From: Clostridia bacterium
GTDB lineage: Bacteria > Bacillota > Clostridia > Lachnospirales > Anaerotignaceae
Reading direction: 5' to 3'
Length of the DNA: 58,061 bases
NCBI GenBank assembly: GCA_022651385.1
Contig: JALCQR010000013.1
Coordinates: forward strand, 1-58,061
The position numbers and the translations under genes were made by a program. This document shows positions 15,992 to 20,408 of this stretch, piece by piece. The notes under the pieces were generated by a model. That model saw only the letters and a program-made list of their open reading frames with translations. It made no database searches and had not been told where the DNA came from. Each line of letters opens with the position of its first letter. The first letter of the stretch is position 1.

Positions 15992-16477
15992 ATGATAAAA
16001 AAGAAAAATTTCAACTACACTTTTACAGATTTCGTGACAGAAAAATTTGCCTTATATGATACCGATGAGGTAAACGATATTTTCTCAAGTTTTTTTGATT
16101 CATCTCAAAAACATGTTTGGGGAATAAAGCTTCTTGAAGAATATGAGGAAAATAAAATAAATGAAAAACAGTTTAATATATTGCTTTTTATATCGAGCTT
16201 TTATGATTTTTCTTTTTTCTGCCCTCATGGAAACTCAATACCGGAAGTGATGCTTGCGCAAAAGGCTGTAAAACTTATACGTGCCGCAAAATATGCCGAT
16301 ATTAGAGATAATATTGAAATGAAAAAAATTATAAATAAAAAATGCCGCGAAACGGCAGCACTTTTGAGAAATTGCAAAAATCAACATATACCAAAAAAAA
16401 TTTTTGAAAAAGTTATGAAACGTCATATAATTGCTCTTGAAAAAAGTGCCGATATGCTTAAGGATTCTTTTTTCTGA
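15992..16477 (+). CDS. Protein of unknown function, 161 residues
   Basis: I do not recognise a family. The protein is lysine- and phenylalanine-rich and predicted soluble and mostly helical, with no signal peptide or membrane segment. The ATG at 15992 is preferred over 15971 because GGTGATATAAAC precedes it, whereas the upstream ATG has no ribosome site. Its 3' end overlaps the converging ThrE-type gene by 20 bases. It stands alone on its strand, behind the pyk terminator. Confidence 0.65.
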   Translation: MIKKKNFNYTFTDFVTEKFALYDTDEVNDIFSSFFDSSQKHVWGIKLLEEYEENKINEKQFNILLFISSFYDFSFFCPHGNSIPEVMLAQKAVKLIRAAKYADIRDNIEMKKIINKKCRETAALLRNCKNQHIPKKIFEKVMKRHIIALEKSADMLKDSFF

Positions 16478-16910
16478 ACATATTAAAATATCTGTCCGGC
16501 ACTGAGTATAGTATAAGTATGGCAAGCGCTATAGCTCCTGCAAACTTTATTGCGCGTACCGTATGTAAAAAAGTATAATACATATCGTTTCTGAGCAGAC
16601 CGTCGGCAATATAATACATTTCTGTTCCCGGTACAAGAGGGATAAGAGCCGGAGTAAGATATATGGTGCTTGGTATAAGACGTTTATATGACAGTACACG
16701 CGAAATAAAGGCGACTGAAACAGCGCCTACAAATACACCGATTGTTTCCATCTGAAGAATTTTAAAAAAAGCAATGTATATAAGCCAGCCTACAGCTCCG
16801 GAAACAGAAGTATGTACTATTTCTTTTCTCGGAATGTTAAAAAGGATGGCAAATGCTCCGGCAGAAACTGCCGAAAATATAAAATCCTTTAATATGAAAA
16901 GAGGAGACAT
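16458..16910 (-). CDS. Threonine/serine exporter, small membrane subunit (ThrE_2 type)
   Basis: A 150-residue membrane protein with about five hydrophobic segments and the LIPLVPGTEMYY motif, matching the C-terminal half (DUF3815 type) of ThrE exporters. In many Firmicutes ThrE is split into two genes, as here; the partner starts upstream at 17690 and ends 15 bases before this start. It probably forms a complex that exports threonine and serine. Its end overlaps the converging unknown gene. Confidence 0.85.
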   Translation of the reverse strand: MSPLFILKDFIFSAVSAGAFAILFNIPRKEIVHTSVSGAVGWLIYIAFFKILQMETIGVFVGAVSVAFISRVLSYKRLIPSTIYLTPALIPLVPGTEMYYIADGLLRNDMYYTFLHTVRAIKFAGAIALAILILYSVPDRYFNMFRKKNP

Positions 16911-16925
16911 ATAAAAAAACCTGCC

Positions 16926-17690
16926 TTACATTATTACACTGCGTAAATGAAGTACAATTAATACCCCGAATGTTATTCCTACCGATATAAATACTGCTTC
17001 TGCGGCTTTTGCTGTTCCTGATACAATATCTCCGAAAGCCATATCACGAGCGGCGCTTGTAATGGCAAATCCCGGAACAAGAGGCATAAGGGAGCCGGTT
17101 ATTATTTTTATATAGCTTAGGCCTATTCCAAAATGTAAAAGCAAAAGTGCAAAAAATGTTATTACAATACCGCCTATAATATTTGTAATAAGAGACGATA
17201 TTCTGAATTTTCCCAGAAAAAGCATTGCAATTCCAAGCAGTATGCCGACTATAAATGATGCAAAGCCGTCATATGCGGCACCGCCGAAAAGTATGGTAAA
17301 CGCAAGAGAAATTAAGCCATAGCATAAAAGGCGAATCCACGGATTAAATTCAGTCATTTGTTTTACTTTTTCAAGCCTTTCCATGCTCTGGGAAATATTA
17401 AGCTCATGTCTTTTAAATCTGCGCGCAATATCATTTAACATCATTATTCTTTCAAGGTCAACACGTCTGTCTGTTATTCGGCGGAAACGTGTTGCGGAAG
17501 CGGTGGCATTGGTGTTGTATATTCCGGCAAATACACCTGTAGGTATAACATATGACTGTGCCGCTGAACAATAGTTTGACAAAATCATTTCCATTGTCCA
17601 TTGAATGCGCTGAGTCTCAGCTCCGCTTTCGAGCATCATACATCCCATTTGAAGAGCAAAATCAAGAATTTCATCTTTATCCTCAGACAT
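16926..17690 (-). CDS. Threonine/serine exporter, large subunit (ThrE_1 type)
   Basis: A 254-residue protein: a soluble N-terminal part of about 115 residues (DFALQMGCMMLESGAETQRI and TGVFAGIYN are typical of DUF1212), followed by about five membrane segments and the second LMPLVPGFAITSAARDM motif. Together with the next gene it makes a complete ThrE-type exporter. It is downstream of the two coaX genes on the same strand, with 47 bases between. Confidence 0.88.
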   Translation of the reverse strand: MSEDKDEILDFALQMGCMMLESGAETQRIQWTMEMILSNYCSAAQSYVIPTGVFAGIYNTNATASATRFRRITDRRVDLERIMMLNDIARRFKRHELNISQSMERLEKVKQMTEFNPWIRLLCYGLISLAFTILFGGAAYDGFASFIVGILLGIAMLFLGKFRISSLITNIIGGIVITFFALLLLHFGIGLSYIKIITGSLMPLVPGFAITSAARDMAFGDIVSGTAKAAEAVFISVGITFGVLIVLHLRSVIM

Positions 17691-17737: not shown

Positions 17738-18514
17738 TCATCTGTCTTTAAAATATTCTTCATATATTATTTTTAATCCGTCCAAAGTCAGTACCGGATC
17801 ATATACGTCAAATATGTCACAGTCGGGATCTATTATATTCGCAAGACCACCGGTTGCTATAACTTTCGCATCCGGAATATTAAGCTCTCTTTTAAGCGTG
17901 TTTATTATTTCTATAGTTTCACCAATTTTGCTTGCTACAATTCCCGCCTGAAGAGAATCAACAGTTGTTTTTGCTATTAGCGTTTCAGGAGAAATAAGCT
18001 CGACTTTTGGTATCTGTGCCGCTTTTTTATACAGCTCGTCCGCGCATATTTTTATTCCTGCCGTTATAAAACCGGTTACAAACTCGCTTTTTTCATTTAT
18101 TACGTCAAATGTGTTTGCTGTGCCGTAATCTATAACAATTGCAGGTGTGCCGTATTTTTCTTTAGCTGCTATTACGTTAACAACTCTGTCAACACCGCAT
18201 TCACGGGGATTGTCGCGCAGTATCTTTATGCCAAGAGGCATATCGGCTGTAACTACTATAGGGTCTATTCCTATATATTTTTTTATACCGTGGATAAGTG
18301 AGTACATTATATTGGGAACTACGGAACCTATTATTACTCCGGTTGTGTCCTTTATGTTTTTGTTTTCGCCTTTGAAGAATGAATATATGGCTATACCTGT
18401 TTCATCAGAGGTTTTTTCATCTCGAGTTGACATACGCCACGTTGCCTGGAGTATTCCGTTTTCGTATAACCCCATTACAATATTTGTGTTGCCAACATCT
18501 ATTACAAGAAGCAT
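17738..18514 (-). CDS. coaX: Type III pantothenate kinase
   Basis: A 258-residue ASKHA-fold kinase that phosphorylates pantothenate, the first step of CoA synthesis. All motifs are intact: DVGNTN with T10, the catalytic aspartate D109 in CGVDRVVN, and DYGTANTFD (D129, G131, T132) for monovalent cation and substrate binding. The start codon directly abuts the stop of the upstream paralogue (no intervening base), and its ribosome site GGGAGG lies inside that gene, so the two are co-translated. The active site of the family lies at a dimer interface. Confidence 0.95.
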   Translation of the reverse strand: MLLVIDVGNTNIVMGLYENGILQATWRMSTRDEKTSDETGIAIYSFFKGENKNIKDTTGVIIGSVVPNIMYSLIHGIKKYIGIDPIVVTADMPLGIKILRDNPRECGVDRVVNVIAAKEKYGTPAIVIDYGTANTFDVINEKSEFVTGFITAGIKICADELYKKAAQIPKVELISPETLIAKTTVDSLQAGIVASKIGETIEIINTLKRELNIPDAKVIATGGLANIIDPDCDIFDVYDPVLTLDGLKIIYEEYFKDR

Positions 18515-19315
18515 TTATTCGTCCTCCCACAGGTAAGCGTCGTGATAGTTCATTTCATAAATAAGCCTAAGGCCCTTAAACGAAAGATATGGATCGCAAA
18601 CATTAAAAATGCTGTTTTTTTCGGCAATTACCCTTGCCATGCCTCCTGTTGCGATTACCTTTAAATTTCGTGCCCCAAGCTCTTTTTTAATTCGGTTTAT
18701 TATGTACCTTGTGCCGCCAAGATGACTGTAATAAATACCGGCCTGTATACATTCTACCATATTTCGGCAGTAAACGCTTTCAGGTCTCTTAATTTCGATT
18801 TTTGGGAGCTGTGCCGCTCTTGAGTAAAGTGCCTCGGCGCATATATTTATACCGGGAGCTGTTATTCCGGTGATAAAAACACCTTTTTCATCAATAACAT
18901 CAAAAGTTGTCGCAGTTGAATAATCAATTACCATTACAGGACAGCTTTTGCCGTAAAAATGGTATGCCGAAGTAAGATTTACTATACGGTTAGCCCCAAG
19001 CTCCTTTGGATTATCCATATTTATTTTAATTTCGGTATTCATGCCGTGCTTTACTATCATAGGGTTTATACCGAAATATTTTCTAAGCCCATGTGTCAGA
19101 GAGTACATAATGTTCGGAACTACAGATGAAATGATTATCTGTTCAAGTTTTTTTGGGTCTATTTCGTCAAACTCAAAGAATTTATAAATTAAAGTTCCTA
19201 TTTCATCTGAAGCCAGCTGAGGATTTGTAGCCAGTTTCCAGCTTGATATGAGTTTATATCCGTCATAGACACCAAGGGCAATGTTTAAATTACCCACATC
19301 TATTACCATTATCAT
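18515..19315 (-). CDS. Degenerate type III pantothenate kinase paralogue
   Basis: A 266-residue protein that aligns without gaps to the neighbouring CoaX over the first 110 residues, with VVPNIMYSL shared. Three active-site motifs are changed: DVGNT is DVGNL (T10 to L), the catalytic aspartate of GVDR is asparagine (N109 in GANR), and DYGTA is DYSTA (G to S133). The frame is open and codon use resembles its neighbours, so this is not a decaying pseudogene. Inferred: a non-catalytic partner or regulator of the intact CoaX, or a kinase with another substrate. First gene of the probable coaX2-coaX-thrE operon. Confidence 0.85.
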   Translation of the reverse strand: MIMVIDVGNLNIALGVYDGYKLISSWKLATNPQLASDEIGTLIYKFFEFDEIDPKKLEQIIISSVVPNIMYSLTHGLRKYFGINPMIVKHGMNTEIKINMDNPKELGANRIVNLTSAYHFYGKSCPVMVIDYSTATTFDVIDEKGVFITGITAPGINICAEALYSRAAQLPKIEIKRPESVYCRNMVECIQAGIYYSHLGGTRYIINRIKKELGARNLKVIATGGMARVIAEKNSIFNVCDPYLSFKGLRLIYEMNYHDAYLWEDE

Positions 19316-19421
19316 TTTTATCCTCCCAAAATTAGTGCATGAAAAATCTCTTTAATTATAACAATAATTCAGGTAATTTCAACACTTGCTTTCTTTTTAA
19401 TACAAAAAAACACAGATGAAA

Positions 19422-20408
19422 TTATATAGCAGTATAAAAATTAACTGAATTTATATTTTTTTTGTTAATTTTGCCAAGCGCACCCAATCTTTCTATATGC
19501 GCTATCGCTTCGCCCACGGCAAAGTATTTCTGCATAGGAGGAAAATCTTCCCAGCTTTTAACATTTATAGACCAGCTCATTAAAGAAGCAACGTCATAGG
19601 CTGTTATTTTCTTATGTGTTTTTATTATTTTTAAACATTCATCAAGACGGTCTTTGTGATGCTTTAACAGCTCGTCTATTCTTTTATAAAAACTTCCCTC
19701 GTTTTTTCTGTGAGATGTGAAAACAGTCTTTACATCGTATTTTCGTATTTTTTTAAGGCTTTCAATATACATTCCGAGAGGGTCGTCTATATGTGCCCAA
19801 AATGTAATATTCGGTGTTATGTCAAAAAGCACATGGTCGCCAGAAAACATTATTTTTTTGTCTTCTATATAAAGGCACATATGACCTGGGGTATGGCCCG
19901 GTGTAAGTATGCATTTTAATTTTATATCTCCTATATTTAAAAAGTCACCGTCATCAAGCGGATGAACATCAAAACAGCTGTCTGTTTCATATTCATCGGA
20001 ATCGCTGCAGTTATGTATTTTTTCAATTTCTTCCTTTGGATACCCGCCTGCTATAAATTTGTTATCCACATTATCCCATGTTTCTTTTATTATATAATTC
20101 ACATAATAAACATAATCTACACGGCTCATATATATATTTGAGATTTTTGGAAAAAGATCGCCGGCAAGACCAATATGGTCGGAATGGAGGTGTGTCAGAA
20201 AAAGATCGGTTTTCGACATGTCCAAATTAAGTTCCTTTAATCCGGCAAAAAGTGCCTGCCTGCATTCAGGTATATTAAATCCGGTATCTATTATTAAATT
20301 ATGCTTTTGAGTCTTTATAACATAGCAATTCAAATTTTTCAAGGGGTTTTTGGGAAGTGGTATATTTATTTTAAATATGTCGGGGGAATTGTAAACCTTT
20401 TCATACAT
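19422..20408 (-). CDS. MBL-fold metallohydrolase
   Basis: A 328-residue metallo-beta-lactamase-fold hydrolase. Metal site THLHSDH (H73, H75, D77, H78), then LTPGHTPGHMCLYIE with a later histidine, and FSGDHVLF with the bridging aspartate. The C-terminal 80 residues resemble the winged-helix tail (BLACT-like) of LACTB2-type proteins. Substrate unknown; a thioester, nucleic-acid or lactone role is possible. Monocistronic and divergent from the NSS transporter. Confidence 0.85.
   Translation of the reverse strand: MYEKVYNSPDIFKINIPLPKNPLKNLNCYVIKTQKHNLIIDTGFNIPECRQALFAGLKELNLDMSKTDLFLTHLHSDHIGLAGDLFPKISNIYMSRVDYVYYVNYIIKETWDNVDNKFIAGGYPKEEIEKIHNCSDSDEYETDSCFDVHPLDDGDFLNIGDIKLKCILTPGHTPGHMCLYIEDKKIMFSGDHVLFDITPNITFWAHIDDPLGMYIESLKKIRKYDVKTVFTSHRKNEGSFYKRIDELLKHHKDRLDECLKIIKTHKKITAYDVASLMSWSINVKSWEDFPPMQKYFAVGEAIAHIERLGALGKINKKNINSVNFYTAI

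Follow-up and report, generated by a model that had tools for sequence, protein, structure and literature searches.

A tandem coaX pair in the Anaerotignaceae: a type III pantothenate kinase and a putative pseudokinase partner

Why would a bacterium keep two adjoining genes for type III pantothenate kinase when one of them departs from the canonical active-site motifs? The question is raised by a coaX pair in a 58,061-nucleotide stretch of DNA from a Clostridia bacterium of the family Anaerotignaceae (contig JALCQR010000013.1; "the window" denotes this whole stretch). The features of the pair, all on the minus strand, are the following.

18515..19315, minus strand: coaX-A, the upstream type III pantothenate kinase paralogue, 266 aa, predicted to be catalytically dead
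17738..18514, minus strand: coaX-B, the downstream type III pantothenate kinase, 258 aa, with a canonical ATP loop and D109
18512..18517, minus strand: zero-base junction read from the sequence, the TAA of coaX-A (18515-18517) being followed directly by the ATG of coaX-B (18512-18514)
18522..18528, minus strand: GGGAGGA, from its sequence the likely ribosome-binding sequence of coaX-B, within the 3' end of coaX-A
19321..19327, minus strand: GGGAGGA, from its sequence the likely ribosome-binding sequence of coaX-A

The two proteins (A and B below) are 48% identical and belong to the same sequence family (CoaX, PF03309, TIGR00671), to which they also conform in length. Both lie far above the PF03309 cut-off of 24.7 bits (203.4 bits for A, 202 for B), and both pass the NCBIfam model PRK13321 "type III pantothenate kinase", A with a score of 270.2 against a cut-off of 233. 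The AlphaFold model of A (pLDDT 87.1, pTM 0.84) has the PanK-III fold, its best match being the Bacillus anthracis CoaX structure (PDB 2h3g; TM 0.88/0.94, E 3.8e-30). The copies differ in their motifs. B reads DVGNTN, GVDRVVN and DYGTA, and so combines D109 with intact ATP loops (DxGNTN, DxGT; column numbers follow B throughout). A lacks this combination: it reads DVGNLN, GANRIVN and DYSTA, with leucine at column 10, asparagine at 109 and serine at 131, and has a methionine at column 184. N109 aligns with an aspartate that we take to be the general base of the Thermotoga maritima enzyme (D105), and the threonine usual at column 184 is presumably a substrate contact, probably supplied by the neighbouring subunit. 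Open reading frames, motifs and the zero-base junction thus bear out the initial annotation, which had described a tandem coaX pair with L10, N109 and S131 in the upstream copy.

The pair is a feature of the family. PF03309 matches are present in all 58 family genomes, and 51 of these, from 13 of 17 genera, carry the tandem A-B pair with A upstream in every case; in four of the 51, one member is cut by a contig end. The gap between the genes runs from -17 to +30 nt, save for 76 nt in one fragment at a contig edge. In genera g11, g13 and g17 the genes overlap, by 17 bases in six of the seven members and by 4 in G045 (loci L056-L060, L068 and L069). Among the matches listed, none contained an internal stop and none was a fused A-B frame, the longest open frame measuring 320 aa. 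An AlphaFold model of a read-through A-Gly-B protein, with a shallow alignment of 14 rows, reached a mean pLDDT of 67.8 and a pTM of 0.68, with residues 256-358 below 50. Across the order, PF03309 matches occur in 364 of 393 genomes, mostly one each, in contrast to the tandem arrangement with one catalytically degraded copy seen here; outside the family, several genomes of the order carry two or three matches (e.g., G061 and G382). DNA patterns encoding the A-type signature D[Y/F]STATT and the B-type signature D[Y/F]GTA[N/D]T were each found in two of 393 Clostridia genomes, the same two and the only family members in the sample, and in none of the 391 outside the family, in a scan for exact matches to a degenerate 27-base pattern that variants would escape.

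Seven family genomes lack the pair. G019 and G055 have a single copy, canonical in G019 (L003) and B-like, with N134, in G055 (L006); the G019 protein branches outside the pair-bearing group (support 88). The other five (G041-G044 and G054; loci L017, L023, L025, L030, L074 and L070-L073) have an A-type coaX, carrying G131S, without an adjacent B. It is the single copy in G041, and in G042, G043, G044 and G054 it is accompanied on a separate contig by a distant PF03309 relative, "x", in which the arginine of GxDR is replaced by methionine or leucine. The x protein may be a replacement for B in these four genomes; at column 134 the x proteins of G042-G044 have serine.

Around the pair, the window encodes ThrE and ThrE_2 exporters, a metallo-beta-lactamase-fold protein, a sodium symporter family protein and pyruvate kinase. 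The threonine/serine exporter is split into two adjoining genes just downstream of the pair (ThrE, 16929-17690; ThrE_2, 16461-16910), and the metallo-beta-lactamase-fold gene lies upstream of it (19425-20408); among the 16 loci compared with the window, three in g14 (L062, L064 and L065) have a homologue of this gene close to the pair. Of 12 paired loci compared, four, all in g14, have homologues of the window's neighbour genes beside the pair; the pair thus persists where its neighbours do not.

In the window's genome the only PF03309 matches are A and B themselves, and CoaBC and PanC are encoded, so that a pantothenate kinase is expected. No PanK-I exceeded the cut-off in any of the 57 family genomes searched; sub-cut-off TIGR00554 matches in 21 of these 57 were taken for other P-loop kinases. 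The type II profile PF03630 gave no match in the window's genome, nor in any control genome, and is thus uninformative on absence. Given the lack of a PanK-I over cut-off and the presence of CoaBC and PanC, there is probably no pantothenate kinase other than the pair, judging from gene content, with B as the only copy that has the canonical catalytic set.

A tree of 90 rows groups the B proteins together (SH-aLRT 96). The A proteins require three label changes and are not recovered as a single group. Matching A and B groups (SH-aLRT 99 and 100, 14 rows each) define a clade of six genera: g1, which holds the window, g9, g11, g13, g14 and g17. The proteins of this clade are called clade A and clade B below.

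For residue conservation, the reference consisted of 91 CoaX proteins from outside the family, namely 86 of the best-scoring profile matches together with L036-L040, and yielded 32 columns conserved at 97% or more; the choice of best scorers may overstate this invariance, and four of the 86 proteins come from genomes with two matches (G131, G172, G246 and G265). In the nine-locus set, L033-L035 belong to the family and L041 was left out. Fragments shorter than 200 aa (A of G032, G032b, A of G038, A of G053a, and G053b) and the duplicate rows of L036, L037 and L039 were omitted from the residue counts.

Within the clade, both copies have moved away from this reference, at largely different positions. 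Retention in clade A falls below 70% at eight of the 32 columns (8, 10, 11, 27, 95, 109, 131 and 184), with losses of T10 in 7 of 15 proteins, N11 and R27 in 9 each, D109 in 8 (always to asparagine; the other 7 retain the aspartate), G131 in 11, and T184 in all 15. Mapped on the tree of 18 B proteins, A needs five changes at column 10, two at 109, and four each at 131 and 184. The L10/N109/S131 pattern of the initial annotation is therefore real in the window, but the exact triple is not conserved as a unit, being complete in just two of the A proteins aligned, those of the window and G037. A nevertheless retains R110, T134 and P152, as well as D129 and T132.

Clade B keeps D6, G8, N9, T10, N11, D109, G131 and T184 in 16 of 16 proteins, T184 being present in all 51 B, and falls below 70% at columns 95, 134 and 152. 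Threonine 134 is found in 91/91 CoaX proteins outside the family and in 48/48 A, and is lost from 51/51 B (to asparagine or aspartate in the 35 B outside the clade); the lone copy of G055 likewise has N134. Proline 152, present in 90/91 proteins outside the family, is kept in 15/15 clade A and lost in 16/16 clade B. In the looser column set, T94 is leucine in all 16 clade B proteins. The window's B, with L94, N134 and A152, shares these departures, so that its description as intact holds for the ATP loop and D109 but not for columns 134 and 152, whose invariance is a property of the proteins outside the family and is not part of the published definition of type III pantothenate kinase. Two paralogues are thus kept per genome, neither with the full set of invariant residues. 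The clade A and clade B groups are each supported and represent the same genomes, which by eye places the changes at A184, B94 and B152 on the same stem. A count made by hand does not bear out complementary loss: the eight columns lost in A and the three lost in B share one, against 0.75 expected by chance; this overlap is not significant and no lower than chance.

The clade copies also differ in where they are constrained. Over residues 166-183, mean identity is 0.78 in clade A against 0.63 in clade B, the highest of 234 18-residue windows in favour of A (a post hoc comparison); over the ATP loop (residues 2-13, likewise picked post hoc) it is 0.52 in clade A against 0.83 in clade B. In the AlphaFold model of A, segment 166-183 sits between two helices of the second half. 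By motif order, it appears to resemble the segment that a partner subunit contributes in human PANK3, as judged from the residues named in PMC8366970.

Taken together, these patterns lead us to favour, at roughly even odds (about 0.5), a reading in which catalysis falls to B and the conserved A, a pseudokinase, is kept as its partner, the two most likely forming a PanK-III-type A:B dimer. We infer that A is inactive, that it associates with B, and that it alters or completes the activity of B. Duplication of coaX would have been followed by specialisation, B becoming the catalytic subunit and A a pseudokinase paralogue that lost ATP-loop and catalytic residues and was retained in an abutting frame, on this proposal because it pairs with B. 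A would then take the place of a second B subunit, and could supply either the neighbouring-subunit wall of the B pocket or a non-catalytic regulatory pocket. In the first form, the wall formed by A residues 166-184 would complete the B pocket; in the second, the A-side pocket, which keeps T134 and P152 and into which T184 of B perhaps reaches, would act as a non-catalytic sensor. If column 184 acts across the dimer, as we presume, its change in every clade A protein weakens the first form, and the pattern at this column (lost in 15/15 clade A, kept in 51/51 B) suits a B:B enzyme at least as well. A dimer of B with a non-catalytic partner, as proposed in the initial annotation, is plausible. 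Several observations weigh against an A:B dimer: D109 persists in 7 of the 15 clade A proteins, the A-type gene lacks a neighbouring B in five genomes, G055 has the B-type N134 in its only copy, no fused frame is present among the matches listed, and A is not recovered as one group. A fuller version, somewhat less probable and put forward tentatively, is an obligate heteromeric bacterial type III pantothenate kinase in which B catalyses, the A wall completes or regulates the B pocket and the dead pocket may sense pantothenate or CoA, and which would have arisen early in the Anaerotignaceae and been re-sculpted in the six-genus clade.

The complete catalytic set of clade B (16/16) would also suit an ordinary B homodimer. 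In that case A would be a pseudokinase on its own, sensing pantothenate or a CoA precursor and acting as a regulator of B, of pantothenate synthesis or of some other target. The retention of R110, T134 and P152 in A despite its lost catalytic residues agrees with such a sensor, for which Mycobacterium tuberculosis CoaX, described as inactive and acting on the depupylase Dop (PMC12288473), is a precedent. We nonetheless regard an independent regulator as less likely, though the most serious of the alternatives: it leaves unexplained why B lost T134 and P152, near-invariant outside the family, and why adjacency and order are so strict. The comparison of genes beside other pairs covered the window's own neighbours, matched only in g14, and bears neither way on a conserved target next to the pair.

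Outside the six-genus clade, A is far closer to a canonical enzyme, retaining D109 and T184 in 33/33 proteins and T10 in 30/32; its chief differences are G131S (33/33) and G8S (17/32). Such proteins raise the possibility that A has remained an enzyme, be it a weak pantothenate kinase or one that phosphorylates another substrate, and the A-type genes without an adjacent B, in four g12 genomes and in G054, point the same way, as do D129 and T132, kept in A. This is improbable, since the A of the window has neither the presumed general base (N109 instead) nor T10 nor the threonine at 184, and the repeated changes in the clade at columns 8, 10, 11, 27, 109 and 131 (two to five per column) look like loss of constraint rather than the making of a new site.

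Both copies have low dN/dS: in the nine genera with usable pairs, the pairwise medians span 0.038-0.144 in A and 0.024-0.152 in B, g11 having no usable pairs and many saturated pairs being excluded; in g14, whose A has N109, the medians are 0.062 and 0.063 for A and B. The reading of A as a redundant duplicate in the course of being lost, which the loss of catalytic residues in several lineages and, in 8 of 10 genera, a higher median dN for A than for B might suggest, is very improbable and largely contradicted by median dN/dS far below 1, by the lack of internal stops among the matches listed, by the tandem order in 51 genomes, and by the stronger conservation of residues 166-183 in A than in B. 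Occurrence in 51 of 58 genomes and 13 of 17 genera, constant order, short gaps and low dN/dS in both copies together uphold the view of a maintained two-protein unit, and run counter to the outcome that would have undone it, a pattern unique to this genome and under relaxed selection.

Among known systems, the apicomplexan PanK1/PanK2 complex appears nearest in logic to the favoured pairing of A with B, and Mycobacterium tuberculosis CoaX the nearest pseudokinase. Type III pantothenate kinase structures are described as homodimers in PMC8366970, according to which all pantothenate kinases characterised before that work formed homodimers. As here, two paralogues are involved in the apicomplexan complex: the nucleotide-binding motifs of one are deviant, and each keeps different important residues (PMC8366970). 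It differs in pantothenate kinase type (type II) and domain of life, and its association and activity were tested by experiment (PMC8366970), whereas those of A and B are predictions. The parallel drawn in the initial annotation is accordingly apt in its logic (PMC8366970), but fits less well with the change at column 184 in all 15 clade A proteins and the five genomes with an A-type gene and no adjacent B. M. tuberculosis CoaX is, like A, a PanK-III homologue that has been kept though reported inactive as a kinase (PMC7770189, PMC12288473), in an organism that also has a type I kinase (PMC7770189). The inactive homologue is described as regulating PanB depupylation in response to pantothenate (PMC12288473; title of PDB 9cku). 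It is a trimer of dimers acting on Dop, whereas the presumed partner of A is its tandem type III paralogue. Among the papers listed by literature searches that covered few subscription papers, we recognised none on paired type III pantothenate kinases.

Profile annotation names both genes "type III pantothenate kinase", and so masks a protein that is probably without catalysis. Should A and B prove to be a single enzyme, bacteria would have a type III equivalent of the heteromeric pantothenate kinase of apicomplexans. The family would then offer a natural series that starts with two nearly canonical copies and ends with a pseudokinase beside a catalytic subunit, and the pairing would provide a route to regulation for an enzyme class described as lacking CoA feedback (PMC12570885).
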